From positions 310,443 through 374,442 of the forward strand of contig CM065690.1 in assembly GCA_017654935.2 (NCBI GenBank): a stretch of DNA of 64,000 nucleotides, given 5' to 3'. How positions within the stretch are numbered: position 1 is the first letter of the stretch; each line of letters starts with the position of its first letter. The notes beneath the pieces were generated by a model. The model had not been told where the DNA came from, did no database searches, and saw nothing but the letters and a program-made list of their open reading frames with translations. This DNA is from Phymorhynchus buccinoides (lineage: Eukaryota > Mollusca > Gastropoda > Neogastropoda > Raphitomidae). Shown one piece after another: positions 1 through 61,621 of the stretch. Made by a program: the position numbers and the translations under genes.

Positions 1-990
1 GATGTTTCCAAAGATGATGTATGAGGACAACATGTGCATGTCTGTGTGATCTGACTGATGTTTCCAAAGATGATGAATGAGGACAACATGTGCATGTCTG
101 TGTGATCTGACTGATGTTTCCAAAGATGATGAATGAGGACAACATGTGGATGTCTGTGTGATCTGACTGATGTTTCCAAAGATGATGTATGAGGACAACA
201 TGTGCATGTCTGTGTGATCTCACTGTTTCCAAAGATGATGAATGAGGACAACATGTGGATGTCTGTGTGATCTGACTGATGTTTCCAAAGATGATGTATG
301 AGGACAACATGTGCATGTCTGTGTGATCTCACTGTTTCCAAAGATGATGAATGAGGACAACATGTGGATGTCTGTGTGATCTGACTGATGTTTCCAAAGA
401 TGATGTATGAGGACAACATGTGGATGTCTGTGTGATCTGACTGATGTTTCCAAAGATGATGAATGAGGACAACATGTGGATGTCTGTGTGATCTGACTGA
501 TGTTTCCAAAGATGATGTATGAGGACAACATGTGCATGTCTGTGTGATCTGACTGATGTTTCCAAAGATGATGAATGAGGACAACATGTGGATGTCTGTG
601 TGATCTGACCCATGTTTCCAAAGATGATGAATGAGGACAACATGTGCATGTCTGTGTGATCTGACTGATGTTTCCAAAGATGATGTATGAGGACAACATG
701 TGCATGTCTGTGTGATCTGACTGATGTTTCCAAAGATGATGTATGAGGACAACATGTGCATGTCTGTGTGATCTGACTGATGTTTCCAAAGATGATGAAT
801 GAGGACAACATGTGCATGTCTGTGTGATCTGACTGATGTTTCCAAAGATGATGAATGAGGACAACATGTGCATGTCTGTGTGATCTCACTGTTTCCAAAG
901 ATGATGTATGAGGACAACATGTGCATGTCTGTGTGATCTCACTGTTTCCAAAGATGATGAATGAGGACAACATGTGGATGTCTGTGTGAT
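1..990 (-). repeat. 56-bp tandem array carrying COPB1 donor-edge copies
   Basis: About 17 copies of a 56-bp unit. Read on the minus strand, each unit contains the last 15-20 nt of the neighbouring COPB1 exon (coding IIFGNI) followed by about 36 nt that match the start of its downstream intron. The true exon ends ...AACATCG then GTGAGATC at 991-996. Array copies instead read AACATCAGTCAGATC, or the shortened AACAGTGAGATC, so the donor is altered in nearly all of them. Long open frames across the array are by-products of the repetition, not genes. Confidence 0.93.
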
Positions 991-995
991 CTCAC

Positions 996-1115
996 CGATG
1001 TTTCCAAAGATGATGCCGTTCTCTGTGGAAGCCACCTTGATGTTGGCCTTGATGTTGCAGAAATCATGTGGGGCCAACAACAATGGCTGAGGCTTCTCCA
1101 CCAGTTTCAGATCAC
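996..1115 (-). CDS. COPB1: COPB1 exon, Coatamer_beta_C region (GDLKLVEKP...GIIFGNI)
   Basis: This exon codes for 39 whole residues of coatomer subunit beta, beginning [18 protein letters not shown] and ending [12 protein letters not shown]. It matches the human beta-COP stretch [18 protein letters not shown]...GNI almost residue for residue. It starts after the acceptor ATCCACAG and ends at the donor GTGAGA, with both splice junctions in phase 1 (G|GT and G|TG), which fits the preceding exon at 6,282-6,426. Beta-COP is a core subunit of the COPI coat that drives Golgi-to-ER retrograde transport; this part lies in the C-terminal domain before the appendage. The next exon should begin with the VYD equivalent and lies beyond position 1. 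The frame is intact. Confidence 0.95.
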
Positions 1116-1158
1116 CTGTGGATAACACAGTGATATAATTCATAATGTACAGAACAAC

Positions 1159-1233
1159 CGTTCTCTGTGGAAGCCACCTTGATATCATGTGGGGCCAACA
1201 ACAATGGCTGAGGCTTCTTCACCAGCTTCAGAT
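1159..1233 (-). pseudogene. Partial, internally deleted second copy of the COPB1 exon
   Basis: Minus-strand translation gives [16 protein letters not shown] joined directly to IKVASTENG, so about eight codons around FCNIKAN are missing in frame compared with the exon at 996-1,115. The sequence before the copy reads ACTGGAA rather than a polypyrimidine-AG acceptor, and its 3' part runs into unrelated sequence. It is a dead duplicate placed just upstream (in gene direction) of the real exon. Confidence 0.85.
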
Positions 1234-1239
1234 TTCCAG

Positions 1240-2737: not shown

Positions 2738-4640
2738 CAGACCTGTTTACCCTTATAATGAAAAACCCGGAATTTGCCACAAAAAACCCCGGAATTTGAG
2801 AACAAAAAGCGGAATTCACATGATCTGTACACGACTCGCAATAAAGCGGTTTCTTGTTCTTCTCCTTTCCGCGAACATCGGCATCGATTTTCAATATTGT
2901 GATGATTTCTTGGCTCAATTTTGCCAGAAAAGTTTTATTAGTAAATTCAGTCACTAATTCTTAGTCAATTTTAGTACAGTCGACCCCCTCACGAACGGCC
3001 CTCTGAATTACGACCTCCCCTCTTTTACGACTGAAATATGAATGACGGATCGTTTTTTCTTCTAAACTTGCCTCCTCATTTACGAATCCCCCTCTAACGC
3101 GTCTTGCGACCGTAAATCTTGTTGATTTTACGACCGATGCAACACATTCTGACAATTATCAGTCGCAAAAACGATGATATCTATCCTTCTCGGCCTCAGT
3201 TCGAGCCGACGCACAGCTGGGGTACCACTGTTGTTAGGTCAATCTCGGTAAAAACGAACCGTTCTCATGCCGAAATTGAAGAATTTAATCAGCGATATCA
3301 CGATCTGACCACTAAATGTCACCACTTTTATGCACATGTGTCATCACTGAGCAGTTTATGATCAAAGTTTGAACTGAAACGGTCGCGATCGTGTCGATCT
3401 TTACGAACTCTGTGCACACGTAGGCCTAAATGCGAAGTCAACTCCCAAGTTGAAACTAGGTGATCGGTCACACTCCATAAGTTGGAACTCAGTGAATGGT
3501 CTCACTTTACAAAAAAATAAGTTGAAAAGCAGCTCCTTTCCGTTATCAAACTGATAAATCGGCGTTAGTGCGTGCACTGAAACACTCACTGAATGCAAAC
3601 AACACACAAAATCCGATAAATGAAAGCAGCTGGCGCATTAGCGTTTGCCGTGATTTCGTATTTGCGGTGTATGCGGCGCCATTTTGTCAGCCGAGTTGTA
3701 TGCGCGGTAAAAGTTCCGTGTGTGCAAACTGTGATTGAAAATGAACTGCCAGAGCGTAAAATGGCGAAAATTAGGTCTGTACTGTTGTTATGTGTAGTTT
3801 GTGTGTGAGTGCAACACGGACCGCGAGCACACTTTCTGTTTTAGCCCGTTTTCGTATATTAGCTAGACCGCGATGTTTCATTCAAGAATGACGGAGAAAG
3901 CATGTTTTAGTTCTAGTGTATGCATGTGGCTGATGTGCTGTGCGTCATATACGGTGTAGTGAGTCACTGAGTGCATTGTTTTGGTCGCCCCTGATTTAAG
4001 ACCCCCCTCTTTTACGACCGATTTTGCGCGATTTTTTGAAGGTCTTAAAAGAGGGGGTCGACTGTATAAAACAAGCTGGAAAAAGCAAAATACCTGGAAA
4101 TGTCCACGATGGGACAGAGAAAAATCACTCGGCCGCGGACCGGCGGATGCCAAATTGCAACTCGGCGCCATCGCGATGAATTTTGACTTCATTTTCCGTT
4201 GAAAACTTCAAAATTCTCACATCATCATATTTTCCAGTGATAATATAATCTAAATTGACTCATTTCAAGCCCTAATTACAATCTCTACCATTACAAAACT
4301 GCCTGGAAAGCTCTTTGAATCGACAGTAAAAGTCTGGCCGCCATTTGCTCAGTCCCGAAATAGATCGACCAAAATAAAAACATTATATCACCCCTTTAAC
4401 CAATGAAAATGCAGCATTTAATGCATGTGACGTCAATCACAACCCCTTTTCTGATGACGTAGCGTGTTAGGTACACGTTTCGGTCAACCCTTGCGTCTTT
4501 TCCTACGAACGGAAACAAATAATAGACGTTTTTTCGAAATCCCGGAATTTTCAGCGTTCACCCGGAATTTACTATTTTACCCAGAATTTTAGCAAATTTC
4601 CGGAATAATTCCGGCTAAACCGGAATGGTAAACAGGTCTG
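2738..4640. mobile_element. CAGACCTG-ended DNA transposon (1.9 kb, non-autonomous)
   Basis: Perfect 14-bp terminal inverted repeats CAGACCTGTTTACC are at 2,738 and, inverted, ending at 4,640. The flanks share CATCTC (2,732-2,737 and 4,641-4,646), which may be the target duplication, and the element splits the LELATLG array cleanly. Subterminal sequence is rich in CCGGAATTT repeats. No transposase frame longer than about 100 residues is visible, so it is probably a non-autonomous member of a TIR family. The superfamily is not certain: hAT is suggested by the CAG...CTG ends, but the duplication looks shorter than 8 bp. Confidence 0.85.
2975..4066. mobile_element. Nested pogo/Tc1-mariner-like MITE
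   Basis: A second pair of inverted ends lies inside the previous element: TACAGTCGACCCCCTC at 2,975 and its reverse complement ending GTCGACTGTA at 4,066. The CAGTCGA start and the flanking TA fit Tc1/mariner-pogo elements, which duplicate TA. Subterminal words such as CTCTTTTACGACC recur at both ends. It encodes no recognisable transposase. Confidence 0.75.
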
Positions 4641-4871
4641 CATCTCACCCAGTGTGGCCAACTCCAGTCATGTACTATACCATAGCAACAATAACAACCA
4701 TCTCAACCAGTGTGGCCAACTCCAGTCATGTACTATACCATAGCAATAATAACAATCATCTCACCCAGTGTGGCCAACTCCAGTCATGTACTATACCATA
4801 GCAACAATAACAACCATCTCACCTAGTGTGGCCAACTCCAGTCATGTACTATACCATAGCAACAATAACAA
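4641..4871 (-). repeat. Continuation of the LELATLG donor-edge array
   Basis: Four further copies of the unit seen at 1,569-2,737, resuming directly after the transposon that ends at 4,640. Minus-strand exon-edge sequence and donor are retained. Confidence 0.9.
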
Positions 4872-5511: not shown

Positions 5512-6281
5512 TAGCAACAATAACAACCATCTCACCCAGTGTAGCCAACTCCAGCACAATGTGCTGTGTACTATACCATAGCAACAATAACAACCATCTC
5601 ACCCAGTGTGGCCAACTCCAGCACAATGTGCTGTGTACTATACTATAGCAACAATAACAACCATCTCACCCAGTGTGGCCAACTCCAGGGTCAGGTTCTG
5701 CAGGGTGTCGGCCATCTGGTTCACAATCAACACGTCCAGCACAATGGACTATGTACTATACCATAGCAACAATACCAACCATCTCACCCAGTGTGGCCAG
5801 CTCCAGGGTCTGGTTCACAATCAACACGTCCAGCACAATGGACTATGTACTATACCATAGCAACAATACCAACCATCTTACCCAGTGTGGCCAGCTCCAG
5901 GGTCTGGTTCACAATCAACACGTCCAGCACAATGGACTATGTACTATACCATAGCAACAATAACAACCATCTCACCCAGTGTGGCCAACTCCAGGGTCAG
6001 GTTCTGCAGGGTGTCGGCCATCTGGTTCACAATCAACACGTCCAGCACAATGGACTATGTACTATACCATAGCAACAATACCAACCATCTCACCCAGTGT
6101 GGCCAGCTCCAGGGTCTGGTTCACAATCAACACGTCCAGCACAATGGACTATGTACTATACCATAGCAACAATACCAACCATCTCACCCAGTGTGGCCAG
6201 CTCCAGGGTCTGGTTCACAATCAACACGTCCAGCACAATGGACTATGTACTATACCATAGCAACAATAACAACCATCTCAC
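5512..6281 (-). repeat. COPB1 donor-edge array next to its exon (94-212-bp units)
   Basis: About nine copies. The units nearest the exon hold more of it: on the minus strand several read [10 protein letters not shown] joined by in-frame deletion to TLELATLG, others include the segment coding [15 protein letters not shown]. All are followed by GTGAGATGG. Exon content falls with distance from the true exon. Confidence 0.93.
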
Positions 6282-6426
6282 CCAGTGTGGCCAACTCCAG
6301 GGTCAGGTTCTGCAGGGTGTCGGCCGTCTGGTTCACAATCAACACGTCCAGCACAATGTCGTACTGGTTCACATTCACGTAGGCCTCCGCATACACCGGG
6401 TCAGAGAAACCCGTCAACTGGGTCAC
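6282..6426 (-). CDS. COPB1: COPB1 exon ([17 protein letters not shown]...LELATLG)
   Basis: 145 nt coding for 48 residues plus one base: [20 protein letters not shown], then [17 protein letters not shown], then [11 protein letters not shown]. Human beta-COP has [19 protein letters not shown] and LELATLG at the same place, within the C-terminal Coatamer_beta_C domain. The acceptor is GGTTTCAG just above 6,426 and the donor is GTGAGA at 6,276-6,281. Phase 0 at the start follows the exon ending SKLSK at 14,045; phase 1 at the end leads into 996-1,115. It lies between a donor-edge array on one side and an acceptor-edge array on the other. Frame intact. Confidence 0.96.
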
Positions 6427-8300
6427 CTGAAACCAATGAAATGAGTCACCTGAAACCAGTGAAATGGGTCACCTGAAACCAGTGAAATGGGCCACTGAAA
6501 CCATCATACACCGGGTCAGAGAAACCCATCAGCTGGGTCACCTGAAACCAGTGAAATGGGTCACCTGAAACCAGTGAAATGGGTCACCTGAAACCAGTGA
6601 AATGGGTCACCTGAAACCAGTGAAATGGGCCACTGAAACCATCATACACCGGGTCAGAGAAACCCATCAGCTGGGTCACCTGAAACCAGTGAAATGGGTC
6701 ACCTGAAACCAGTGAAATGGGTCACCTGAAACCAGTGAAATGGGTCACCTGAAACCAGTGAAATGGGCCGCTGAAACCATCACACACCGGGTCAGAGAAA
6801 CACGTCAGCTGGGTCACCTGAAACCAGTGAAATGGGTCACCTGAAACCAGTGAAATGGGTCACCTGAAACCAGTGAAATGGGTCACCTGAAACCAGTGAA
6901 ATGGGCCGCTGAAACCATCACACACCGGGTCAGAGAAACACGTCAGCTGGGTCACCTGAAACCAGTGAAATGGGTCACCTGAAACCAGTAAAATGGGTCA
7001 CCTGAAACCAGTGAAATGGGTCACCTGAAACCAGTGAAATGGGTCACCTGAAACCAGTGAAATGGGCCATTGAAACCATCATACACCGGGTCAGAGAAAT
7101 CTGACAGCTGGGTCACCTGAAACCAGTGAAATGGAACAATGAAACCAGTGAAATGGGTAATTGAAACCATCATACACCGGGTCAGAGAAATCCGACAGAT
7201 GGGTCACCTGAAACCAGCGAAATGGGTCATTGAAACCAGTGAAATGGGTCATTGAAACCAGTGAAATGGGTCACCTGAAACCAGTGAAATGGGTCACCTG
7301 AAACCAGTGAAATGGGTCGTTGAAACCAGTGCAATGGGTCATCAGAAACCGGGTGAAATGGATCACCCGAAACCAGTGAAATGGGTCGTTGAAACCAGTG
7401 CAATCGGTCATCAGAAACCAGTGAAATGAATCATCCAAAACCAGTGAAATGGGTCATTGAACCAGCGAAATGGGTCACCTGAATCCAGTGAAATGGGTCG
7501 TTGAAACCAGTGAAATGGGTCACCGGAAACCAATGAAATTGGCAATTGAAATCAGTGAAATGGGTCACCTGAAACCAGTGAAATGGGTCACCTGAAACCA
7601 GTGAAATGGGTCACCTGAAACCAGTGAAATGGGCCATTGAAACCATCATACACCGGGTCAGAGAAATCTGACAGCTGGGTCACCTGAAACCAGTGAAATG
7701 GAACAATGAAACCAGTGAAATGGGTAATTGAAACCATCATACACCGGGTCAGAGAAATCCGACAGATGGGTCACCTGAAACCAGCGAAATGGGTCATTGA
7801 AACCAGTGAAATGGGTCATTGAAACCAGTGAAATGGGTCACCTGAAACCAGTGAAATGGGTCATTGAAACCAGTGAAATGGGTCACCTGAAACCAGTGAA
7901 ATGGGTCACCTGAAACCAGTGAAATGGGTCGTTGAAACCAGTGCAATGGGTCATCAGAAACCGGGTGAAATGGATCACCCGAAACCAGTGAAATGGGTCG
8001 TTGAAACCAGTGCAATCGGTCATCAGAAACCAGTGAAATGAATCATCCAAAACCAGTGAAATGGGTCATTGAACCAGCGAAATGGGTCACCTGAATCCAG
8101 TGAAATGGGTCGTTGAAACCAGTGAAATGGGTCACCGGAAACCAATGAAATTGGCAATTGAAATCAGTGAAATGGGTCACCTGAAACTAGTGGAATGGGT
8201 CACCTGAAACCAGTGAAATGGATCACCTGAAACCAGTGAAATGGGTCACCTGAAACTAGTGAAATGGGTCATTGAAACCATCATACACCGGGTCAGGATA
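6427..8300 (-). repeat. 23-bp array of COPB1 acceptor edges with longer exon-start copies
   Basis: About 70 units of a 23-bp word that on the minus strand reads CACTGGTTTCAG then GTGACCC, i.e. the polypyrimidine-AG acceptor and first 7 nt of the exon at 6,282-6,426. About nine interspersed longer units include the next 25-30 nt of exon (coding [11 protein letters not shown], or variants with changed residues). Some units have the acceptor changed to TTTCAAT. A block of about 570 bp is itself duplicated (around 7,100-7,560 and 7,668-8,170). Confidence 0.92.
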
Positions 8301-14044: not shown

Positions 14045-14131
14045 CTTGCTCAGCTTGGACGATCCAATGGGGTCAGAGTCTTTCTTGGATGACATCCCCA
14101 GAGCCTGGGACAGTGTCAGCTCAAACAGGTT
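14045..14131 (-). CDS. COPB1: COPB1 exon (NLFELTLSQALGMSSKKD...SKLSK)
   Basis: 87 nt coding for exactly 29 residues, NLFELTLSQALGMSS then KKDSDPIGSSKLSK. The human counterpart reads DQFQLSLLAAMGNTQRKEAAD and SKLNK. Acceptor GTGTTGCAG directly precedes AAC at 14,131; the donor is GTCTGT after AAG at 14,045. Both junctions are phase 0, consistent with the neighbouring exons (...GPGE before, VTQLTG after). The part of the exon next to the acceptor is copied eight times upstream in the 114-bp array. Confidence 0.95.
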
Positions 14132-14139: not shown

Positions 14140-15085
14140 CGATAATAAACATGGCATAAAACGATACAATACAGTATAATAAAGTGTGTCTTTATCGGAC
14201 GACATCCCCACAGCCTGGGACAGTGTCAGCTCAAACACGTTGTGCAACACAACAATAACAATATTGATCATGGAAAATGATGCAATACAGTATAATAAAG
14301 TGTCTTTATCGGACGACATCCCCACAGCCTGGGACAGTGTCAGCTCAAACAGGTTGTATAACACAACAATAACAATATTGATCATGGAAAATGATGCAAT
14401 ACAGTATAATAAAGTGTCTTTATCGGACGACATCCCCACAGCCTGGGACAGTGTCAGCTCAAACAGGTTGTGCAACACAACAATAACAATATTGATCATG
14501 GAAAATGATGCAATACAGTATAATAAAGTGTCTTTATCGGACGACATCCCCACAGCCTGGGACAGTGTCAGCTCAAACAGGTTGTATAACACAACAATAA
14601 CAATATTGATCATGGAAAATGATGCAATACAGTATAATAAAGTGTCTTTATCGGACGACATCCCCACAGCCTGGGACAGTGTCAGCTCAAACAGGTTGTG
14701 CAACACAACAATAACAATATTGATCATGGAAAATGATGCAATACAGTATAATAAAGTGTCTTTATCGGACGACATCCCCACAGCCTGGGACAGTGTCAGC
14801 TCAAACAGGTTGTATAACACAACAATAACAATATTGATCATGGAAAATGATGCAATACAGTATAATAAAGTGTCTTTATCGGACGACATCCCCACAGCCT
14901 GGGACAGTGTCAGCTCAAACAGGTTGTATAACACAACAATAACAATATTGATCATGGAAAATGATGCAATACAGTATAATAAAGTGTCTTTATCGGACGA
15001 CATCCCCACAGCCTGGGACAGTGTCAGCTCAAACAGGTTGTATAACACAACAATAACAATATTGATCATGGAAAATGATGCAATA
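14140..15085 (-). repeat. 114-bp array of COPB1 acceptor-edge copies with destroyed AG
   Basis: Eight copies, nearly identical. On the minus strand each holds intron sequence followed by AACCTGTTTGAGCTGACA and on through about 20 codons (NLFELTLSQAVGMSSDKDT). At the junction every copy has ...TGCAC or ...TATAC in place of the functional TGCAG, so none can serve as a normal acceptor. TGCAC and TATAC types mostly alternate, a 228-bp dimer. The period is 38 codons, giving 319-368-residue open frames on both strands that are not genes. Confidence 0.93.
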
Positions 15086-17650
15086 CTTCTTCTTCTTCCG
15101 TGTTCCCAGGACAAACATATGGAACAGACATTGAACAGACATTGAACAGACATGGAACAGAAAGAAACGGTCAACACAACTCTATTGAACAGACATTGAA
15201 CAGAGGAAGAAAAGGTCAACACAACTCTATTGAACAGAGGAAGAAACGGTCAACACAACTCTATTGAACAGACATTGAACAGAGGAAGAAAAGGTCAACA
15301 CAACTCTATTGAACAGACATTGAACAGAGGAAGAAAAGGTCAACACAACTCTATTGAACAGACATTGAACAGAGGAAGAAACGGTCAACACAACTCTATT
15401 GAACAGACATTGAACAGAGGAAGAAAAGGTCAACACAACTCTATGGAACAGACATTGAACAGAGGAAGAAAAGGTCAACACAACTCTATTGAACAGACAT
15501 TGAACAGAGGAAGAAACGGTCAACACAACTCTATTGAACAGACATTGAACAGAGGAAGAAACGGTCAACACAACTCTATTGAACAGACATTGAACAGAGG
15601 AAGAAAAGGTCAACACAACTCTATTGAACAGACATTGAACAGAGGAAGAAAAGGTCAACACAACTCTATTGAACAGACATTGAACAGAGGAAGAAAAGGT
15701 CAACACAACTCTATTGAACAGACATTGAACAGAGGAAGAAACGGTCAACACAACTCTATGGAACAGACATTGAACAGAGGAAGAAACGGTCAACACAACT
15801 CTATTGAACAGACATTGAACAGAGGAAGAAAAGGTCAACACAACTCTATTGAACAGACATTGAACAGAGGAAGAAACGGTCAACACAACTCTATGGAACA
15901 GACATTGAACAGAGGAAGAAACGGTCAACACAACTCTATTGAACAGACATTGAACAGAGGAAGAAAAGGTCAACACAACTCTATTGAACAGACATTGAAC
16001 AGAGGAAGAAACGGTCAACACAACTCTATTGAACAGACATTGAACAGAGGAAGAAAAGGTCAACACAACTCTATTGAACAGACATTGAACAGAGGAAGAA
16101 AAGGTCAACACAACTCTATTGAACAGACATTGAACAGAGGAAGAAAAGGTCAACACAACTCTATGGAACAGACATTGAACAGAGGAAGAAAAGGTCAACA
16201 CAACTCTATTGAACAGAGGAAGAAAAGGTCAACACAACTCTATGGAACAGACATTGAACAGAGGAAGAAAAGGTCAACACAACTCTATTGAACAGACATT
16301 GAACAGAGGAAGAAAAGGTCAACACAACTCTATTGAACAGACATTGAACAGAGGAAGAAAAGGTCAACACAACTCTATTGAACAGACATTGAACAGAGGA
16401 AGAAACGGTCAACACAACTCTATGGAACAGACATTGAACAGAGGAAGAAAAGGTCAACACAACTCTATTGAACAGACATTGAACAGAGGAAGAAACGGTC
16501 AACACAACTCTATTGAACAGACATTGAACAGAGGAAGAAAAGGTCAACACAACTCTATTGAACAGACATTGAACAGAGGAAGAAACGGTCAACACAACTC
16601 TATGGAACAGACATTGAACAGAGGAAGAAAAGGTCAACACAACTCTATTGAACAGAGGAAGAAAAGGTCAACACAACTCTATTGAACAGACATTGAACAG
16701 AGGAAGAAAAGGTCAACACAACTCTATTGAACAGAGGAAGAAAAGGTCAACACAACTCTATTGAACAGAGGAAGAAAAGGTCAACACAACTCTATTGAAC
16801 AGAGGAAGAAAAGGTCAACACAACTCTATGGAACAGACATTGAACAGAGGAAGAAAAGGTCAACACAACTCTATTGAACAGACATTGAACAGAGGAAGAA
16901 ACGGTCAACACAACTCTATGGAACAGACATTGAACAGAGGAAGAAACGGTCAACACAACTCTATTGAACAGACATTGAACAGAGGAAGAAAAGGTCAACA
17001 CAACTCTATTGAACAGACATTGAACAGAGGAAGAAAAGGTCAACACAACTCTATGGAACAGACATTGAACAGAGGAAGAAAAGGTCAACACAACTCTATT
17101 GAACAGACATTGAACAGAGGAAGAAACGGTCAACACAACTCTATTGAACAGACATTGAACAGAGGAAGAAAAGGTCAACACAACTCTATTGAACAGACAT
17201 TGAACAGAGGAAGAAACGGTCAACACAACTCTATGGAACAGACATTGAACAGAGGAAGAAAAGGTCAACACAACTCTATTGAACAGACATTGAACAGAGG
17301 AAGAAAAGGTCAACACAACTCTATTGAACAGACATTGAACAGAGGAAGAAACGGTCAACACAACTCTATTGAACAGACATTGAACAGAGGAAGAAAAGGT
17401 CAACACAACTCTATTGAACAGACATTGAACAGAGGAAGAAAAGGTCAACACAACTCTATTGAACAGACATTGAACAGAGGAAGAAAAGGTCAACACAACT
17501 CTATTGAACAGAGGAAGAAAAGGTCAACACAACTCTATTGAACAGACATTGAACAGAGGAAGAAACGGTCAACACAACTCTATTGAACAGAGGAAGAAAA
17601 GGTCAACACAACTCTATTGAACAGACATTGAACAGAGGAAGAAAAGGTTA
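15086..17650. repeat. 45-bp tandem array, about 55 copies
   Basis: Unit: aacagaggaagaaaaggtca then acacaactctattg plus aacagacattg, with two frequent variant sites (aaaaggt/aaacggt and tattgaac/tatggaac) and several 29-bp short units that drop the acagacattg part. Because 45 is divisible by three the array is open for hundreds of codons on both strands (QTLNRGRKGQHNSIE on plus; VLTFSSSVQCLFNRV on minus). It lies inside a COPB1 intron and has no start context or domain, so it is read as a minisatellite. Confidence 0.93.
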
Positions 17651-17864: not shown

Positions 17865-17954
17865 CTCTCCAGGCCCCATGTCCGCTCTGTTGAGCAGCTG
17901 ACTGAAGTTGATGGGGTCATCGGCATGGACCTTCACCACTTTCTTCTCTGCTGC
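17865..17954 (-). CDS. COPB1: COPB1 exon (AAEKKVVKVHADDPINFSQL...GPGE)
   Basis: 90 nt coding for 30 residues: AAEKKVVKVHADDPINFSQL, then LNRADMGPGE. Human beta-COP has PDDPISFMQL at the matching position, downstream of the lysine-rich linker that separates the N-terminal solenoid from the C-terminal domains. Acceptor TTGTCAACAG precedes 17,954; donor GTCAGT follows 17,865. Both junctions are phase 0. The 5' part of this exon and its acceptor are repeated five times in the adjoining array, which overlaps the exon at 17,925-17,954. Confidence 0.95.
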
Positions 17955-18395
17955 CTGTTGACAATGCACACATCATGTGAACAAACTGGCTGGGTCATCG
18001 GCATGGACCTTCACCATCTTCTTCTCTGCTGCCTGTTGACAATGCACACATCATGTGAACAAACTGGCTGGGTCATCGGCATGGACCTTCACCACTTTCT
18101 TCTCTGCTGCCTGTTGACAATGCACACATCATGTGAACAAACTGGCTGGGTCATCGGCATGGACCTTCACCATCTTCTTCTCTGCTGCCTGTTGACAATG
18201 CACACATCATGTGAACAAACTGGCTGGGTCATGGACCTTCACCATCTTCTTCTCTGCTGCCTGTTGACAATGCACACATCATGTGAACAAACTGGCTGGG
18301 TCATGGACCTTCACCATCTTCTTCTCTGCTGCCTGTTGACAATGCACACATCATGTGAACAGACTGGCTGGGTCATGGACAATGCACACATCATG
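17925..18395 (-). repeat. 73-78-bp array of COPB1 acceptor-edge copies
   Basis: Counting the true exon there are six units. Each contains on the minus strand the acceptor TTGTCAACAG, then GCAGCAGAGAAGAAAGTGG and more exon to about the ADDP codons, then intron. The acceptor is intact in all copies. Later copies lose five bases (78 to 73 bp). None carries a donor, so they could act only as alternative 3' splice sites. Confidence 0.93.
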
Positions 18396-21075: not shown

Positions 21076-21411
21076 ACTTCATCATCATCATCACCATTAT
21101 CTGTATTATCATCACCATTATTTGTATTATCATCATCACACATTATCTGTATTAACATCATCATCACCATTATCTGTATTATCATCATCACCATCACCAT
21201 TATCTGTATTAACATCATCATCACACCATTATCTGTATTATCATCAACCCATTATCTGTATTATCATCAACACCATCACCATTATCTGTTATTAACATCA
21301 TCATCAGTATTATCATCACCATTATTCTGTATTATCATCATCACCATTATCTGTATTATCATCACCATCATCATCACCATTATCTGTATCATCATCATCA
21401 TTTATCTGTAT
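21076..21411. repeat. (ATC)n array, right part
   Basis: Same ATTATCTGTATTATC repeats as 18,396-19,936. Confidence 0.93.
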
Positions 21412-21690
21412 TATCTCACCTCCTGGGCAGATTTATTCTCATCTATCTTAGTGGCCAGCATCACAGAGAGGCTACAGGCCTCAGTGAAAATCATCATCAT
21501 TATCATCATCATTATCATCATCATTACCACCATTAATTGTATTATCTCACCTCCTGGGCAGATATATCCTCATCTATCTTAGCGGCCAGCATCACAGAGA
21601 GGCTCCACCTACAGGCCTCGGTGAAAATCACCATCATTATCATCATCATTACCACCATTATCATCATTACCACCATTATCTGTATTATCT
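21412..21690 (-). repeat. Two partial COPB1 donor-edge copies in (ATC)n sequence
   Basis: Copies at about 21,417-21,490 and 21,541-21,626 reproduce the 3' part of the exon at 21,703-21,858 on the minus strand. One reads FTEACSLSVMLATKIDEN then KSAQE, with a small in-frame deletion and substitutions; the other reads FTEACRWSLSVMLAAKID. Both are followed by the donor GTGAGAT. They lie downstream of the true exon in gene direction and are separated from it and from each other by (ATC)n runs. Confidence 0.93.
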
Positions 21691-21702: not shown

Positions 21703-21858
21703 CTCCTGGGCAGCTTTATCTTCGTCTATCTTGGCGGCCAGCATCACAGAGAGGCTCCCCCTACAGGCCTCGGTGAAGATCTCCTGCATGAGGTCGGAGC
21801 GCTCCGCCAGAACCCGCAGACAGGTGGCGATACGATCCACATCGTCGTCTGTGATTGG
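21703..21858 (-). CDS. COPB1: COPB1 exon (PITDDDVDRIATCLRV...DKAAQE)
   Basis: 156 nt coding for exactly 52 residues: PITDDDVDRIATCLRVLAE, then RSDLMQEIFTEACRGSLSVM, then LAAKIDEDKAAQE. Human beta-COP has PITDDDVDRISLCLKVLSE and LSHMLSAKLEEEK at this point, near the end of the helical-repeat trunk. Acceptor TTTATTTCAG precedes 21,858; donor GTGAGA follows 21,703. Phase 0 on both sides. Frame intact, good sequence quality here. Confidence 0.97.
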
Positions 21859-37816: not shown

Positions 37817-38225
37817 GTGAGACTATATGCTGGGATATGCTGGGATACTATGAAATAAGGGGTGCTAAGTACCACCCTGACGGCAAGCTGATGCAGGAAA
37901 TTGATCCTGTGTGTGATGCTACAGGAAGGTGAGATAATCTGGGATAATGCTGGGATAGATGAAATAAGGTGGTGCCTAATACCCCTGAACCAACTGATGC
38001 AAGGTAGATGATCCTGTGTGTGTGACGCCTACAGAAGGTGAGATATCTGGGATAATGATGAGATAATTCTGGGATAATGATGAAATAAGGTGGTGCCAAG
38101 TACCACACCTGACGGCAATGCTTGTGATGCAGCAATGACTCCTGGTGTGTGCCGTCCTACAGGAAGGTGAGATAATCATGGATAATCATTGGAGATAATC
38201 ATGGGATTCCATGGGATAATGACTG
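37817..38225 (+). repeat. COPB1 donor-edge array (KLMQEM...DAYRK)
   Basis: Three copies after the true exon, about 110 bp apart. Each codes approximately DGKLMQEMILVCDAYRK with indels, followed by the donor GTGAGAT and ggataatgatgaaataaggt. They repeat the 3' end of the exon at 37,591-37,816. Confidence 0.85.
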
Positions 38226-39765: not shown

Positions 39766-40235
39766 ACCATTAAAGTCCCGATTTTTTTAATAATCAGATA
39801 CTGTAGTCCATCCCGGTGTAATCGCCCTGCCCCCACCCTCCCCCCCCAACCATCCCCCACGCCCCCCACCACCCTCCACCACCACCGTTTTGTCATAAAC
39901 AGGGATCGTCACCGTCCCCGTCATCTCCTTGCCATTCGAAGAAGAATTACTAAAAGCAGACAGACGGCACAGAAAGACGTACAAAGCTCAAAGAGGACAA
40001 CTGCTGTTCACTGTTGTGGATGAGTGAACATTTTGTTTAACGTTCCTCCGCCCGCGGAGGCAGAGACAGACACAGACAACAGACAGAGATAGAGATGTGA
40101 CAGCGATTTACCCGACGATAATGTAGGGGGTTGGCACATCTTGACCAGCCAGAAAGTGTTTCCATCATGATTTAAACTTTTACCGGCGCGCACCCCCCCC
40201 CCCCCCCCCCTCCTACCCCCTGCTAACAGCACTTT
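39766..40235. other. C-rich tracts, no gene
   Basis: Two C-rich blocks (39,826-39,895 and a run of about 20 C near 40,193-40,212) with intervening sequence that has no recognised feature. The first block has a counterpart at 42,001-42,120. Confidence 0.5.
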
Positions 40236-40930: not shown

Positions 40931-41147
40931 TGAAAGTATTTCCTTTTTCTTGAAAAACGGCAGGAGAATGGACCGAAAGGCAGAACATAGTATATAACAG
41001 CATGTCAAAGGGAAAGGCGAATCAAAGAGACTGACGATTAAGGTAGTTATAAGCACAGAACTTCCAGAAGGTGTGGAACTATTTGTACAAGACATCCCCC
41101 CCTACCTGTATCCATGGGGGGGGGGGGGGGGGTGTTTTACCTACCCC
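40931..41147 (+). mobile_element. Dispersed repeat S (GGCAGGAGAATGG), copy 1, then G-run
   Basis: About 140 bp at 40,960-41,100 matches 58,535-58,690 in order: ggcaggagaatgg, ggaaaggc, aagaga, gaacttc, cagaaggtg, gaactatttgta. A run of 18 G follows near 41,115. Confidence 0.6.
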
Positions 41148-42702: not shown

Positions 42703-43020
42703 TGATTGTGTGACTATGTTATTTATATTGTGTGACTATGTTATTTATATTGTGTGACTATGTTATTTATATTGTTATTACTGTGCTATGTCCCAGGACC
42801 TTCAACATCCCAATGAGTTCATCCGGGGCTCCACCCTGCTTTTTCTGTGTAAATCATCTGTGTGTGACTATGTTATTTATATTGTTATTACAATATTACT
42901 GTGCTATGTCCCAGGACCTTCAACATCCCAATGAGTTTATCCGGGGCTCCACCCTGCGATTTCTGTGTAAATCATCTGTGTGTGACTATGTTATTTATAT
43001 TGTTATTACTGCTATGTCCC
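42703..43020 (+). repeat. COPB1 acceptor-edge copies next to their exon
   Basis: After three TGTGTGACTATGTTATTTAT units come two copies (42,797 and 42,912) of TATGTCCCAG, then GACCTTCAACATCCCAATGA and on to TTTCTGTGTAAA (coding [19 protein letters not shown]), ending in ATCATCTGTGTGTGAC. The acceptor CAG is intact in both. Unlike the copies at 38.3-38.7 kb these are clean. Confidence 0.92.
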
Positions 43021-43022: not shown

Positions 43023-43192
43023 GACCTTCAACATCCCAATGAGTTTATCCGGGGCTCCACCCTGCGATTTCTGTGTAAACTGAAGGAGCCAGAGCTATTG
43101 GAGCCTCTGATGCCTTCCATCAGACAGTGCTTAGAGCATCGTCACTCCTACGTCAGGAGAAATGCTGTCCTCGCTATCTACACCATCTTCAG
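43023..43192 (+). CDS. COPB1: COPB1 exon ([19 protein letters not shown]...LAIYTIF)
   Basis: 170 nt coding for 56 residues plus two bases: [40 protein letters not shown] and [16 protein letters not shown]. Human beta-COP residues 108-163 are almost the same ([36 protein letters not shown]), a highly conserved stretch of the helical trunk. Acceptor TATGTCCCAG at 43,013-43,022; donor AG/GTAGTG at 43,193. It joins DAYRK (37,816) in phase 0 and passes two bases of an Arg codon to the NF exon at 56,572. Frame intact. Confidence 0.97.
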
Positions 43193-50629: not shown

Positions 50630-53460
50630 AAATCAAAAATCAAATCAAATCATCTTTATTATCTCATAACTGAGAAATTGCAGCCAGGTGCACATAAGAA
50701 AAACAGCAACAATAAACACATTTATCAACAATTAAAGAATATAAACTAATAACTAATAACACTGCAATATTGTAGTTAACAAACTGGACGAATACGAATA
50801 CAAATTCAATCCCAAGGAGATGGACAGGCTGCTCAGCAAAACAATCACTCAATGCAGTGCATTAAGAGTTCAACAGATGAATTGATCTTGGTAAGAAAGT
50901 TTTTCTGTGCTCTTATTTTCAGTTTTAGAGTTCTGTATCGACGGCCCGATGGTAATTACTTCATAGTATTTTGCCAGAACATGACTGTTATCATTAAGAA
51001 TTTTCCTGGCTTTCTTGACTACTTGTCTGTCATACAACTCTTGCATACCACTCTGCCTTGCACCCACAACTTTACTGCACACATTCACCATATCACTCAA
51101 CACACGCTTACTTTTTACACTCATACTCAAGCTTCCATACCAACAGATAAATGACACAGTAAGAACAGATTCAATGCAACATCGGTAGTAGGTTTGAAGA
51201 ATATCTGAACAGACACCAATATTCCTTAGCCTCTGTAAACAAAAGATCCTGGACTGACTCTTCTTATGTATATGCTCAATGTGTTTATCAAAAGTAAGTT
51301 TCTTGTCTAAAACTGTGCCTAGGTATTTGTACTCATCAATTCTTTCAACAGTTTCACCATCAATTTCCAAATGTGGCACTGGCACTGGGTTTCTACGAAA
51401 ATCTACAAGCAGTTCTTTTGTTTTAACAACATTTAAATCCAGATAATTATCTTTGCACCATGAACAAAACCTTTTGACTTCACTGAAGTACACAGAATCA
51501 GAGTTTGATAAATCTTCGATGGCAGAATCATCTGAGTATTTAATGACAGGTGTTTCTTCAGTGCCTCTGCAGTCGTTTGTGTACAATGTAAAAAGAACAT
51601 GGGGACAAAACTGTTCCTTTGGGGGCACCTGTAGAAGTCGGAACGTTCTGAGGAGATTGCAGATTGAAAGCGGACAGACTGAGTTCTATTGCGTAGAAAG
51701 TTGGTTATCCAGAGAATGAGCTTGGGGTTAACATTCAGGTCTAATAGTTTCTGGGCCAGTAAATGGGGCTGTATTGTATTGAAGGCAGAGGAGAAATCGA
51801 TGAATAAAATACGAACAAAAGAGTTGGGGGTATTTAAGTGAAGAAAGGCATTGTGAAGAAGGGTCAGTAAGGCATCGTATGTTCCTCTACACCGTTTGTA
51901 GGCAAACTGAAAGGGGTCAAGGAGTAGGTTAGTAAAAGAAAGAAGGCGGATGGATGATGAAGGACTGAGATTCTTTTCAAAACATATTTCATGGCATAGA
52001 TGTTAAGGCAACAGGGCGGTAATCGTTCAGTGTGGCAGGGGTTCTTTTTCTTAGGGACAGGGGTAACTGTAGAATTTTTCCAGATACATTGTACAACACA
52101 ATCACGTAAGACCAGTTAAATAGAGAGCAAAACACACCACACAATTGATAACAGCATGCTTTCAACAATCTTCCACACATATTATCTGGTCCCACAGCTT
52201 TCCTCACATTTATTTAGTTTCTGAAATATGGACTGAACATCTCTTTCTTGAACCTCAAATTCATTATCTTCACTTGCATTGATAATTTTTTCTCTTAACT
52301 GTGACGTTACCCCGTTTAGATCTCCCTCTAGATCATTTCTTTCAAACCGACAATAAAAGTCATTTAGCTCATTAGAAAAAATCCTTCTGTTCTTCTCTTG
52401 TCATTTGGCAATTTGCTGTTCGTTTCTTTGATTGGCCAGTTAGAGTTCGAAACCCATCCCATGCATCTAAGATTCTGCCTGTCTGAAACTGCTGTTCTAC
52501 TTTATCCTTATACTCCCTCTGCCCCTTCCTTAACTCCTCTCTAAGTTTAGATTGAACCACTTTTCTTTCTCTTTTATCTCCTGTTTGAAAGGCTACTTTC
52601 TTCTCATTTAAAACAGATTTAATAGACTTGGAAATCCACGGATTGTTGTTGGGAAAAATCTTTATAGTCTATATCTTCACAAAAATTAATGTAAGACGTA
52701 ACAACATCAGCAGCTTCATGCACAGTTTCACAGGAATCAGTCAGCACACTCCAGTCGGTACATTCAAAACAACCCCTCAATTCATCCACACTCTCGGTCG
52801 TCAACTCTTTCACGCTCTTTTTCACCACAGGTTAAGTTTGTATTTTGGGTCTGTAGGCAGGGATAAGTTGCACGGTGTCATGGTCGGAAGCACCCACTGG
52901 TGGTAGAGGTAGATATCTATATGCATTGGGAATATTGCCGTAACACAAGTCAATAGTCTTCTTCTGAAGAGTAAAACATGTCACATACTGTTTAAAATAG
53001 GGTAGAGTTTTACGCAAGTCACAGATTAAAGTCACCAACGATGAAGCAGAGGGCATCAGCAGAAATCAACTGTAGCTCTCTGACCACAGCAGCTATCTCC
53101 CTTCCAGCGCATACAGCAGAGGTCTTGTCAAACACAGGGGCATACACAACTGTCAAAAAGACACGACCAAACTCGCGAGGAAGATAACGCGACATGAGAG
53201 ACACAGAGAGCAGTTCAATGTCTTGTGTACACACATGCTTCTTTACGGTTACATTCGCACCATCACACCAGCTTTTATTCACATATAAGCAAACACCACC
53301 ACACATTTGCTTTCCCACTTTCTCACAGTCTCCATCAACTCTGTACGGCACACCAAAACCATCAATTGCTGCATCCTCATCACGAACTTTCTCAGTCAAC
53401 CAAATTTCCGTAAAACAGAGTACACATGAGTTTCTATATTCACTAAGAAATTGACAATAT
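50630..53460 (-). mobile_element. Rex1/Jockey-like LINE with endonuclease and reverse transcriptase
   Basis: Minus strand, from 53,460 downwards: an APE-type endonuclease (GVPYRVDGDCEKVGKQMCGG, VCLYVNKSWCD, FIVGDFNL at about 53,020, ASDHDTVQLIP at 52,870); a linker (LREELRKGQREYKDKVEQQF, WDGFRTLTGQ); and RT with AVGPDNMCGRLLKACCYQL, LNDYRPVALTSM, then in shifted frames FAYKRCRGTYDALLTLLHNA and VRILFIDFSSAFNTIQP, then VIKYSDDSAIEDL, LDLNVVKTKELLVDFRR, YKYLGTVLDKKLTFDKHI and CCIESVLTVSFICWYGSL. The catalytic box is YSDD. About 2.8 kb, near complete over EN and RT but with several frameshifts. The 3' end at 50,630 is a CAAATCAAAAATCAAATC simple repeat. Confidence 0.88.
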
Positions 53461-54390
53461 GCCTGGATTTCGTGCTACTTCTTCTCCCTAAGGTACAGTT
53501 CTTCCGTAGCGTAAGTTTGATAGATCTGACGTTTTATAGTGTTTGTATTGTATTCGTATAGAATCATGGTGGGTAGGGGCAGTTTTGATTCTGTTTCTTT
53601 CTCATTCTTCTTCTCATTCCTCCTCTCTGTCCTCTCTTTCGTTCCTTCTTCTTTCTAGCCGTACTCTCACTCTCACTTTCACCAATTCATTTCAGCAGGG
53701 AATAATTGTCCAGAAAAGGCAGAGATGTCATGGGCAGTTTGAAGACGAAGAAGAAATTCACGATCGTAGCGCAAAGCACCGGTAATAGATCTACCTTCCT
53801 GCTGCCCGCCATATATCTCACCAGGCGTCACAAGCACAGTCAAAACACACATGTCCGAAATACAACTATGACGATGATTAGAATCTTTACAAATGACACA
53901 GTCTCCATCTTTACAACTTATAATTCATCTGCATTCAACTAAAAGTTCAGGAAACAGATAAAGATAATAAAACAAGATGAAAAATACAGAGACTAGTGCA
54001 CCTGAGCGTCGCCCCTTGAGAAGCGCCACCAGTTGTGATTTTCTTTTACCAGTGGTGTATAAACTGAACAAGTAAGAATGGAGCAAGTGTATATGGTGTT
54101 AGCTATGCATGTCCAAATGATACCCCCCTTTAACAAAGTGAAAGAGACAATGCGAATGTTCTTTCTTTGACTCTTTTCCTAATAAGAAACCGGCAGTGCC
54201 ACTGTTGACTACCAGTATCATTGAGAACTCTGCCAAGAATATAACACCAGAAGCCTGTTGATACAGCAACGTGTTAGCTATAGCATTCCTATAGGAATGT
54301 GTATTCTGTGTGTAAGTGTTAAGTTCAGTGTGTATTGTGTAATACCTTTCCATTTGTTGACTCGCGAAATGAGGGTTCGGTACAGATATT
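53461..54390. other. Unassigned sequence after the LINE
   Basis: Contains a CT-rich tract (53,590-53,680) and otherwise ordinary sequence; short open frames show no domain. It may include the LINE 5' region. Confidence 0.5.
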
Positions 54391-56135: not shown

Positions 56136-56571
56136 TGTAGTTGCCTGGATGGGATTTTTGATTCCTGACGCTCCAGAGCTGATCGCTAATTTCCGTGTCC
56201 CTCTGTTTTCAGGAACTTTGACTTCCGATTTCCTGACGCTTCCGAGCTGATTGCTAATTTCATTCAGTGTCCATGCCATTTCAGGAACTTTGATTTTCCG
56301 ATTCGCTGGCGCTACCAGAGCTGAATTGCTATTTCGTGTCCTATGCTTTTCAGAGAACGTTGACTTTCCGATTCCTGAACGCTTTCCGAGCTTGATTGCT
56401 AATTTTCATGGTGCTGTGTGTTTCAGGAACTTTTACTTTCTTATTCCTGACGCGCAGAAGAGCTAGATTGACTAATTTCAGTGTGCTGATGTGTTTTCAT
56501 GGAACTTGTTACTTTCTGATTCCTGAACGCTCCGAGCTGATTTGCTATTTCAGTGTGCTGTGTGTTTTCAG
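56136..56571 (+). repeat. COPB1 acceptor-edge array (NFDFLIPDAPELIANF), about 75-bp units
   Basis: Six noisy copies precede the true exon. Each contains TGTGTTTTCAG, then GAACTTTGACTTTCTGATTC and CTGACGCTCCGAGCTGATTG, CTAATTTC, then a short intron segment. Human beta-COP reads NFEHLIPDAPELIHDF here. Most acceptors keep AG. Confidence 0.88.
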
Positions 56572-56699
56572 GGAACTTTGACTTTTCTGATTCCTGACGC
56601 CCCCGAGCTGATTGCTAATTTCCTGGAGGGAGGAGCAGGACATGTCCGCAAGAGGAACCATTTATGATGCTCATTACAGCAGACCAAAGGTGGTGGTGT
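56572..56699 (+). CDS. COPB1: COPB1 exon, frameshifted ([17 protein letters not shown]...ADQ)
   Basis: After the acceptor TGTTTTCAG, the reading (with indels) is NFDF.[22 protein letters not shown] and FMMLITADQ, equal to human residues about 165-202 ([20 protein letters not shown]...SCKRNAFMMLIHADQ). The first two bases of the preceding Arg codon come from 43,191-43,192. The donor here is GTGGTG at 56,700, but later copies of the 3' edge up to 61,530 have the better GACCAG/GTGTGT, so which copy is spliced cannot be decided. At least four one-base indels break the frame. Confidence 0.75.
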
Positions 56700-58265: not shown

Positions 58266-58840
58266 AACAAGGTTCCCCACCTTCTGTAATTTTTTGTGCT
58301 TGTAGCTTCCTCTAATCTGCCACTGCACTTTGACTCTCTGCTGTCCCTTTGCGTACTGTCATTTGGCTATCTTTCTGACTTATTGCCAGTCTCCTGCTTT
58401 AAAATAGCCATATGGGTAGATACGTATGTGTCCGTTATTTCAGTTTTCACTGGTCTCCGCCGCTAGCGTACAGCCGACCATTCTGTTTCGGAGGAGCTCA
58501 AAGTGAGAAATTTTATTTGAAGATTTATTTTAAGGCAGGAGAATGGGCCAAGAATTCAGAAGATTAGTAAGCTGACAGTAAGCAAAGGGGAAAGGCAGTG
58601 TCAAGAGAGTGGCATTTAGGGAAGTTACAGGCCCAGAACTTCTCAGAAGGGTGGGGGAACTATTTTTTACGAAAGCCCCTCACGGAGAGAGACAGCGATT
58701 GACGAGCAGGCACTAATCCACGTGAATTTTGGGAATCCGGAAAAGGTGCAAGAATTTATCCAGAATTGGGAAGAAAATTCAGTCAGATGTTCCCATAACA
58801 CACATCAATCATTAAATCCTTGTAGGAGAAGAGCGAGAGA
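58266..58840 (+). mobile_element. Dispersed repeat S, copy 2, and flanks
   Basis: 58,535-58,690 shares its order of words with 40,960-41,100 (ggcaggagaatgg, ggaaaggcagtg, cagaacttctcagaagg, gaactattttt). The surrounding sequence is unassigned. Confidence 0.55.
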
Positions 58841-60330
58841 GTGAGAGATTTAGAGAGAGATGAGAGAGAGAGAGAGAGAGAAGAGAGAGAGAGGAGAGAA
58901 AGCGGAATGTGCGAATGATTTATTCGATGGCCAGGCCCTTATTGAAGGGGTAGGTGAACAACAAAGATCAACCATCATAATAATTATTACTCCGTCAATC
59001 ATAATCAAATAAATACAATCATCATCAGTAAATCTCGTTATCCATGATACTAATGTCGCTACTATAACAATTGCTTCAGTCATATTGCAATTAACATCCG
59101 TAGCAACGAGCAGAAGAAGGACTATGATAGCAATGGTCTCTACTTTAAAGCTTTACTAAAAGGGCGAATTCCGAATATGTGACTTTCTTTTCTTTGAAGC
59201 TAACAACAATGTTAATTTAACGCACATGGATTATCGAATATATTTTGTGGATAAATTTGGTCGAATATCATTTAATTGCAGGTCAACGCAGAGTAAAATG
59301 CATTTCAGAGGAGAGAAGAGAGAGGATAGGAGAGAGAATAGAGCGAGAGAGAGAGAAGAGAGAGAGAGAAGAGAGACAGACGACAGACAGACAGACAGAC
59401 GTGAGAGAACTGAACAGCCAGAGACAACGAGAGAACAACAGACCAACAGAGAGGACAGAGGCTCACAGAGAGAGACGATACACTTGACAGACACACACAG
59501 AGATAGGAGAGACGGAGTGACACTGACAGAGACAGACCGACAGATAGAGACGAGAGAGGGATAGAATGGCTGACATGAATGTGTTAATAGAAGGAGATTA
59601 AAATAAGAGGACTTAACAGCGGACAAACAATTAATGATGCAGGCAGTATTCAAGTTCAAGTGCTCTCTCTCTCTCTTCTCCTCTTTCATCCTCTCTCTCT
59701 CTCTCATCTCTCTCGTCTCTCTCTGCTCTCTCTCACTCGCTTTCTCCTCTCTTCTCTCTCTCTCTTCTCTCCCCTCCGTCCGCCTCTCCGTCTCTCGAGC
59801 GTATCTTCCTAATCTCTCTCTCTCCCGTCAATTCCTCGGTACATGGTCGCGCACCGACAGACACCATTACATCGTACCACAACTCTCAAAAATCATGCAC
59901 ACACGTAAGACACACCAACGACGAAAGTACAATCCAAGCGCTCGGACAGTCAAACAGCGGACAAGCATCTGGTGCAAAGTGCACAGGGATAGGGGGGGGG
60001 AGACAACACACACACCCGCACACAAATTTGACGATCAGAATTGGTCATGAGGGTACCCACAGATAGTAGCAGCCCAAGGGCGTGGTTGGGGGGGGGGTGG
60101 TGTGGGAGGGTATAGTGAGGGTGGGGGGGGTCGCTACTAACGAGATAGACCAGGGGGGCGGGTGGGTATTGTGTGGGGGGTAACTGACGCGAAAGGAGAG
60201 GAACAGCAATTAGAGGAGGGTGGATGGGACAGAGGAGATGACAGTACCACGTGATTTGATCGCCGCCGCTCATGCTCACGACGCGTGCCCAGAACAATTC
60301 TGACAACTGTGTTATAGACCATTCAATCAA
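58841..60330. repeat. GA/CT-rich simple repeats, no gene
   Basis: (GA)n at 58,825-58,905 and 59,305-59,560, with (CT)n at 59,660-59,830, so roughly complementary tracts. G-runs occur between 60,085 and 60,180. Arg/Glu-rich and Ser/Leu-rich open frames are compositional. Confidence 0.75.
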
Positions 60331-60927
60331 GAAGATGTTGTGGAAAAAAATGCATTTACAATAGAATGTACAAACTTCGCGAGAATATTAGCGATTATTG
60401 TTTCGGGGGTTTGAAACCCCGTAACTGCTGCTACCTTGACCTAATGTAAAACTAAATACATCAGTGGATATCTTGCATCTTGCAAACTAGTGTAGACCTT
60501 AATTGTATGATGATAGACGGAATAGTTTTAATTTGAAGAAAAACGGCCAGAATAGATCCGGACGACGGAGGCCCACGCCGACTGACGGACCAGACAAAAA
60601 CGATAGCTTAGCTCTCCCGAACCTTCGGCTCGGGGACTAAAAATCCTGTTCCAAGCGAGTGTGGAAGACCTGTGAAAATGGCTTCTACTACATCTAAAAC
60701 GGGTCGGAAAAGACTACAACAGTGGCCAGTTCAAAGGAACATCGTTCCAAAAAATGACTGGTTGAAAAAGTGGGCCGTGGCGACGAGATTGAGACCCAGG
60801 GATGCAATGGTACTTGTGTTTTGAAGCACAATAAAAAGAATATGGTTGGATAGGGGGGAGTGCCCCCCTTTTTTTGACATGAGGGGGGGACTGCCCCCCT
60901 TTTTCAGAAATCCTAGATTAAGCTCTG
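60331..60927 (+). mobile_element. Right part of hAT-like transposon 2 with a hairpin repeat
   Basis: 60,548-60,645 holds acggaggcccacgccgactg and the hairpin CCCGAACCTTCGGCTCGGGG, a type of palindrome often found at the end of small dispersed repeats. At 60,678 an ATG opens MASTTSKTGRKRLQQW, about 47 codons, of unknown meaning. Then come the subterminal G/C hairpins and the TIR. Confidence 0.5.
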
Positions 60928-61621
60928 AGGCTTATACATGCAGACCAGTTGTTTGTGTGTATGTGTGTGTGCGTTATGGCTTGTTATGACATGTCCTGCA
61001 AGAGAAACGCATTTATGATGCTCCTGCACATGCAGACCATGTGTGTGTATGTGTGTTGTGGTGTGTGTCTGTGTGTGTGTGTATTGTCTCTGTGTGCGTG
61101 TATGGTGTGTGTGTGTGCGTGGATGTGTGTGGTATGTGTGTGTGTGTGTGTGTGTGTATGTGTGTGTCTGTGCGTACGTATGTGTGTGTGGTATGGCTTG
61201 TATGACATGTCACAAGGAAATGCATTTAATGATTCTCCTACATGCAGACCAGGTGTGTAATGTGTGTGGTGTCCTGTGCGTGCGTTCGTGCGTGTGTGTC
61301 TGTCGTGTGTGTGTAATGTGTGTGGTCTATGTGTGAATGTTTGTGTGTGTCACGTGCGTGTATGTGTGTGTGCGTTATGGCTTGTTATGACATGTCTCAA
61401 GAGAAACTTATTTATGATGCTCATACATGCAGACCAGGTGTGTATGTGTGTGCCGTGTGCGTTATGGCTGTGTTCTGACATATTGTCCTGCAAGAGAAAC
61501 GCATTTATGATGCTCATACATGCAGACCAGGTCTGTGTCTGTGTCTGTCTGTCTGTGCTGTGTGCGTGGTCTATTCTGTGTGTTGCGTGTTTCCTCACTC
61601 TTGTGTCTGTCTGTCGATTGT
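60928..61621 (+). repeat. COPB1 donor-edge array (DMSCKRNAFMML...ADQ) with (GT)n spacers
   Basis: Four copies at about 60,985, 61,203, 61,394 and 61,478, plus the remainder of the split copy at 60,930. The cleanest reads GACATGTCCTGCAAGAGAAA then CGCATTTATGATGCTC and ATGCAGACCAG, followed by GTGTGTATG. The exon part codes DMSCKRNAFMMLIHADQ apart from small indels. The spacers are GT dinucleotide stretches grown from the donor side. Confidence 0.9.

Follow-up and report, generated by a model that had tools for sequence, protein, structure and literature searches.

Tandem arrays of exon-edge sequence beside most visible exons of COPB1 in the gastropod Phymorhynchus buccinoides

The COPB1 gene of the raphitomid gastropod Phymorhynchus buccinoides raises the question of how the introns of a single gene came to be filled with tandem copies of the edges of its own exons, and whether those edges are the target of duplication or its bystanders. 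Part of the gene lies in a stretch of 64,000 nucleotides (nt), here called the window, which corresponds to C11:310443-374442 (contig CM065690.1) of an assembly of 2.12 Gb in 3962 contigs. The repeated units straddle one splice junction and follow each other, on the intron side, beside an exon that is itself intact. With a probability of roughly two in three, these arrays are mirage-type minisatellites, in which short COPB1 introns grew by recurrent local tandem duplication and the exon edges were bystanders, while scaffolding accounts for the inverted arrangement of the two gene halves in the window.

Exons were placed from TBLASTN matches to the COPB1 chain of PDB 9qpq_H, together with inspection of the surrounding sequence. 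Nine were placed in the window: six C-terminal exons (Ea-Ef), all on the minus strand, occupy 1.0-28.8 kb, and the plus strand carries three N-terminal exons (E1-E3) at 37.6-56.7 kb. Tandem Repeats Finder (TRF) returned 139 rows in the window; merged, those with a period of at least 10 form 57 arrays covering 31,242 bp, or 49% of the non-N sequence. The array share of the intron and flank stretches ranges from 25 to 100%, with 98% between Ed and Ec and 84% both between Ee and Ed and between Ec and Eb. Each exon, with 60 nt on either side, was then compared with the window by BLASTN (E ≤ 0.01), and matches holding at least 7 nt of exon and at least 5 nt of intron were counted as edge copies. 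This search gave 161 edge copies, with exonic portions of 8-82 nt, at 11 of the 18 edges and at eight of the nine exons. Only 16 of the 57 merged arrays (11.1 of 31.4 kb) hold such a copy. A first-pass annotation of the window had listed 14 arrays, all of which are present in the TRF and BLASTN results with the edge it had named; its statement that all eight exons are bordered by arrays of their own edges holds for those eight, to which a ninth, Ea, without copies, must be added. It had also described acceptor edges only upstream and donor edges only downstream, which is true of all 161 copies, every one of them on the strand of its own exon. This one-sidedness is not a separate finding, being the necessary outcome whenever a tandem duplication crosses one edge only.

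Among the minus-strand exons, Ef (996-1115; human amino acids ~764-803; AG and GT borders) has a donor-edge array at 1-906 made of 16 copies of a 56-bp unit with 20 nt of exon, in 13 of which the donor GTGAGA reads GTCAGA. A single partial Ef copy (exon nt ~3-100), which the first-pass list had missed and which is not counted as an edge copy, lies upstream of the exon at 1158-1233 on the same strand. Exon Ee (6282-6426; amino acids ~715-763) has 40 donor copies, in arrays at 1274-2737 (27- and 58/67-bp units), 4641-4871 (58-bp unit) and 5512-6281 (units of 67/94/118/306 bp with as much as 77 nt of exon), and 58 acceptor matches with distinct junctions in a 23-bp array at 6427-8280, each with 20-37 nt of exon. 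The Ee donor array is split at 2738-4640 by a segment with 17-nt terminal inverted repeats (2738-2754 and 4624-4640, 94% complementary), which is probably a transposon-like insert, so that the interrupted array would be older than the insert; by eye, its flanks resemble a short target duplication. Acceptor-edge arrays accompany Ed (14045-14131; amino acids ~686-714), with eight copies of a 114-bp unit at 14158-15086, none of which keeps the acceptor AG, and Ec (17865-17954; amino acids ~656-685), with five copies of a 78-bp unit at 17992-18376. Exon Eb (21703-21858; amino acids ~603-655) has two donor-edge copies at 21366-21632, with 79-82 nt of exon. No edge copy of Ea (28701-28767; amino acids ~586-602) was found by BLASTN in the window, and a cleaner copy of this exon at C11:540860-540931 is likewise without them.

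On the plus strand, E1 (37591-37816; amino acids ~30-103), which is exon 2 of the gene, lies between an acceptor-edge array of 16 copies of a ~124-bp unit (35317-37539) and a donor-edge array of three copies of a ~110-bp unit (37877-38172), the latter with ten copies in two other contigs. Exon E2 (43023-43192; amino acids ~104-164) has five acceptor-edge copies, three at 38341-38686, 4.3 kb upstream, and two adjoining the exon at 42751-42971. Exon E3 (56573-56689; amino acids ~165-203) has four acceptor-edge copies of a ~72-bp unit at 56155-56550 and four donor-edge copies at 60926-61558, which begin 4.2 kb downstream of the exon here and 1.3 kb downstream in another contig. Microsatellites also start within ~10 nt of the donors of Ea (28695), Ec (17857) and E3 (56690), as (CAT)n, (CA/TG)n and (GT)n respectively, the (CAT)n beginning 6 nt beyond the Ea donor.

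The joined translation of Eb-Ef (199 amino acids) runs in one frame, is colinear with human COPB1 and is identical to it at 137 of 201 aligned positions. Among the best 120 of 3577 protein matches to this part, the highest identities are those of Pomacea canaliculata (95%), one further protein (94%), Batillaria (92%) and Littorina (91%), and that of Branchiostoma lanceolatum is 69%. In a protein tree of 20 rows, comprising the window and 19 of the 120 listed matches, the window falls in a five-row caenogastropod clade with those four top relatives (support 98/95). A lancelet source, to be expected from what has been published on mirages, is rejected by this tree. The placed borders are AG and GT in eight of the nine exons, the E3 acceptor being one base off in the window copy.

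The two halves of the gene lie in opposite orientation in two contigs joined by a 500-N scaffold gap (31899-32398). In the 264 kb of C11:290443-554442, COPB1 is spread over several contigs in both orientations with 500-N gaps between them, and many of its parts are present two or three times and others once; the repeated parts are unresolved haplotype or duplicate contigs. Since the contigs are jumbled in this way and parts of the gene multiplied, scaffolding of such contigs is the best reading of the inverted arrangement in the window. Exons E1 and E3 are broken in frame in the window and each run in one frame in another contig (C11:427337-427566 and C11:448267-448381), so part of the right half of the window is a poor consensus, and copy numbers in this right-hand contig, which is poor in places, are not reliable.

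Extension to the whole gene, using the cleanest copy of each of 19 testable exons in C11:290443-554442, gave edge copies at 16 of the 19 exons and at 20 of 36 edges (9 of 18 acceptors and 11 of 18 donors), the same scaffold being searched throughout; exons 8, Ea and 21 were the three of the 19 tested that had none. The regions coding for amino acids ~487-578 and ~801-856 are not among the visible exons. The 279 copies of the whole gene all have distinct junctions, and none lies on the opposite strand, on the wrong side of its exon or together with a whole exon. As many as 64 copies occur at one edge, and the median unit spacing ranges from 23 to 206 bp across arrays. A further 41 matches to amino acids 857-880 at 302.3-305.4 kb, beside a 5000-N run and with no visible exon, were excluded from the counts.

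Nine exons were compared across contigs, and the same arrays were found in two or three contigs for each. Copy number is equal between contigs at Eb (2), Ec (5) and Ed (8), and unequal at exon 2 (15/5/7 at the acceptor and 3/10/10 at the donor), exon 3 (5/2/2), the exon 5 donor (9/16) and exon 7 (8/10), differences that could reflect haplotypes, duplicates or errors. The counts at Ee (donor 40/13/68, acceptor 58/63/6) are affected by where contigs stop: the second ends 3 kb on the donor side, and the retrieved sequence runs out on the acceptor side of the third. Identity between contigs is 100% at exon 3, Eb, Ed and Ee, 94% at exon 4 and 87% with 20 gaps at exon 2. A recurrent process with many different units, as proposed in the first-pass annotation, is borne out in the window, over the whole gene and between contigs.

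Edge copies are also present in other genes of the genome. A second sample was drawn from matches to the Adaptin_N profile, of which 22 of 47 rows were taken; of the remainder, six are COPB1 itself, two are partial copies on C18 and 17 fall outside the sample. Two of the 22 rows were left out of the edge test, one cut by the end of its locus and one on L002, leaving 20 exons, with profile-match ends standing in for exact splice sites as edges. An end is covered by partial copies on the same strand in 11 of these 20 exons and at 12 of 40 ends, examples being seven donor-side copies at C18:30708858-30709842 (82-98% identical) and 20 acceptor-side copies from C8:45861959 on, while the adaptin gene on C2 had none at its three exons tested. 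Internal repeats in the exon at C14:20382137 may add one false edge. Elsewhere, exons of the CCT family (PF00118) at C27:30848853, C3552:19065 and C1055:18354 lie inside stop-free frames of 956, 1012 and 570 amino acids, as expected from in-frame arrays without stops, and an Adaptin_N match at C15:17949146-17950417 lies in one open 560-amino-acid frame without stops, perhaps a retrocopy.

Whether the exon edge is itself a target depends on the expectation against which these counts are set. Several points weigh against the edges being bystanders. When the 57 array units were placed uniformly on the collapsed window, a mean of 1.2 edges was hit, compared with 11 seen, and none of 20000 runs reached 11; when arrays were kept within their own intron the mean was 2.9, again with none of 20000 runs reaching the observed value. 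Since it was this pattern that led to the choice of the window, these statistics are post hoc. In the control using pseudo-edges weighted by 1/copy number, copies were found at 22.3% of COPB1 pseudo-edges and 56% of edges (2.5-fold excess, P = 1.5e-5), and at 14.7% and 30%, respectively, in the other adaptin genes (2-fold excess, P = 0.010, or P = 0.012 without C18, whose gene already looked repeated before sampling). Moreover, the length of the ancestral introns is assumed, and correct splicing of the true edges is something we infer from genomic sequence. In turn, the placement results and weighted controls favour a duplication process aimed at exon borders, which could be due to breaks or template switching associated with transcription, R-loops or the GC step at exons.

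Against such targeting stand the unweighted controls, in which no excess appears: copies were found at 66.5% of 800 pseudo-edges in the same COPB1 contigs compared with 20 of 36 edges (56%, P = 0.94), and at 29.2% compared with 12 of 40 ends (30%, P = 0.52) in the other adaptin genes, or 11 of 36 ends without C18 (P = 0.49). Taken by itself, the 49% of the window that is array today gives P = 0.22. With ancestral introns capped at 500, 400 and 300 bp, P for the edges hit is 0.03, 0.08 and 0.25, so that at ~300 bp the excess is gone and the edges are hit as often as expected, which supports their being bystanders. The ends of units are not located at the junction; they reach 19-85 nt into the exon (medians of single arrays, themselves with a median of 57), the exonic share of the unit in 20 arrays has a median of 0.525 and is compatible with a uniform distribution (Kolmogorov-Smirnov P = 0.21), and 41 of the 57 merged window arrays have no exon edge. 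The suggestion of the first-pass annotation that duplication starts at exon borders is not supported, given the position of the unit ends, the uniform-compatible exonic share and the lack of an excess of edges in the unweighted comparison. The weighted control is taken as the fairer one and its excess is modest, which can be explained by short ancestral introns without a hot spot; after these controls, the hot spot at exon edges suggested by raw counts is unproven. Border-directed duplication is the most probable of the alternatives, though an unlikely one, and its broader form, in which something linked to transcription or splicing would steer local tandem duplication to splice junctions throughout the genome and introns would grow outward from exon edges on most exons of most genes, is more doubtful again.

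The preferred explanation is that COPB1 introns were once short, perhaps a few hundred bp, and that recurrent local tandem duplication lengthened them. Some duplicated segments would have happened to straddle an exon edge, and would have been tolerated, since a complete exon was left with its own AG...GT pair as the closest one and exon definition kept splicing correct; repeated slippage or unequal exchange may then have multiplied the unit. Exon definition via the closest AG...GT pair is an established idea for splice-site choice. The exon edges would thus be bystanders of intron growth and not its origin. The related first-pass idea that selection keeps one exon whole while the intron side fills is supported as to the intact exon and the position of the edge copies; selection itself is only plausible, since units shorter than their exons, as most are here, put it to no more than a weak test.

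Selection could also act on the copies themselves, keeping them as spare, decoy or regulatory splice sites, an improbable alternative. It agrees with the AG or GT being intact in 239 of the 279 copies and throughout 17 of 20 arrays, and with a slightly high rank of the splice dinucleotide among other aligned dinucleotides (mean percentile 0.587, P = 0.036; within 20 nt 0.576, P = 0.053). A slight excess in rank is, however, expected anyway, because the reference site of the true exon cannot change and its intron neighbours can. The dinucleotide is intact in none of eight copies at Ed, 35 of 58 at the Ee acceptor and 31 of 40 at the Ee donor, and in the pooled 161 window copies it is less conserved than the rest (0.857 vs 0.896; the E3 acceptor entered this comparison displaced by one base). 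The signs of selection on the copies are weak and point in both directions.

It has been proposed for lancelet globins (PMC3087553) that introns arise by tandem duplication of exon segments with proto-splice sites, and the COPB1 arrays might be remains of such intron gain. This origin is slightly less probable still: as far as window BLASTN tested, each window array matches one edge of one exon, and a duplicated exon segment at both ends of an intron was not seen, no separate search for one having been made. Least probable of all is that the arrays are assembly artefacts. In favour of this are the jumble of contigs in both orientations around the window, the indels in exons 2 and 4 as they stand in the window (87% and 94% identical to the other contig), and the chance that contigs of one assembly share reads and so are not fully independent witnesses. 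Against it, each of nine exons has its arrays in two or three contigs, copy number being equal at Eb, Ec and Ed; four exons are 100% identical between contigs; and the same structure occurs in other genes on other chromosomes.

Other features of the window include LINE-like (long interspersed nuclear element) remains on the minus strand, at 26555-27013 and 51436-52002, which match RVT_1, and at 53022-53474, which is counted among them on an Exo_endo_phos match below cut-off. An ALKBH8_N match at 62696-62947 on the same strand is presumably a LINE fragment. C and G runs at 40191-40209 and 41116-41134 form a perfect 19-nt inverted repeat around a 906-bp stretch. An Rfam search of the window gave no match at gathering score.

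The closest known system is found in lancelets, where tandem duplications of exon/intron boundaries have been named mirages (PMC3087553, PMC3902484) and where, in the portions of these reports available, they are described from Adh3, the globins BflGb6 and BflGb9, TnC and PGBD5, the last two in PMC3902484. The first-pass statement that no described gene was known with such arrays on nearly every exon is therefore wrong in kind. The COPB1 arrays fit mirages in having tandem minisatellite-like units, a unit that spans a 5' or a 3' boundary, and AG/GT in many but not all copies. As far as the lancelet accounts go, both 5' and 3' boundaries are affected in both animals, and unit length depends on the site (10-72, 60, 108 and 150-160 bp in lancelets, compared with a median spacing of 23-206 bp in the snail). 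Array length varies between haplotypes in lancelets; in the snail it differs between contigs at several edges, but these contigs may be haplotypes, duplicates or errors, and some are cut short. The hosts differ, one being a mollusc and the other a cephalochordate, with taxon treated as no part of the mirage definition. They differ also in extent: the available lancelet text gives a single boundary for each of two globins and a pair for PGBD5, whereas 16 of 19 visible COPB1 exons are affected, with up to 64 copies at one edge and an intron that is 98% array. In lancelets splicing was tested and is reported to be normal; in the snail, where five joined exons give one frame colinear with COPB1, it is presumed to be so.

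Two further systems are comparable in part. Human genes in segmental duplications have internal tandem repeats at exon-intron boundaries (PMC2812944), and the available text describes minisatellite repeats over these boundaries that alter the intron, as in COPB1; in the human genes half of the repeats fall inside coding exons, and new introns can arise from those at boundaries, whereas in COPB1 the repeats lengthen introns and the exon stays single. The TSSK1-like gene of abalone has a polymorphic intronic minisatellite with a 27-bp unit (PMC6905558), which is likewise in a gastropod intron, and differs in that the available part of the report mentions no exon edge in the unit. A search of the open-licence literature found neither a mollusc mirage case nor a gene with edge arrays on most of its exons. 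What seems to be new is the phylum of the host and the fact that most exons of a single gene are affected.

These results carry mirages to a mollusc, where they affect most visible exons of one housekeeping gene and other genes of the same genome, which suggests that the growth of introns by local duplication may give rise to mirages generally. They also provide natural test cases for splice-site choice, such as exon 6, in which one true donor is followed by 64 copies that all keep GT.

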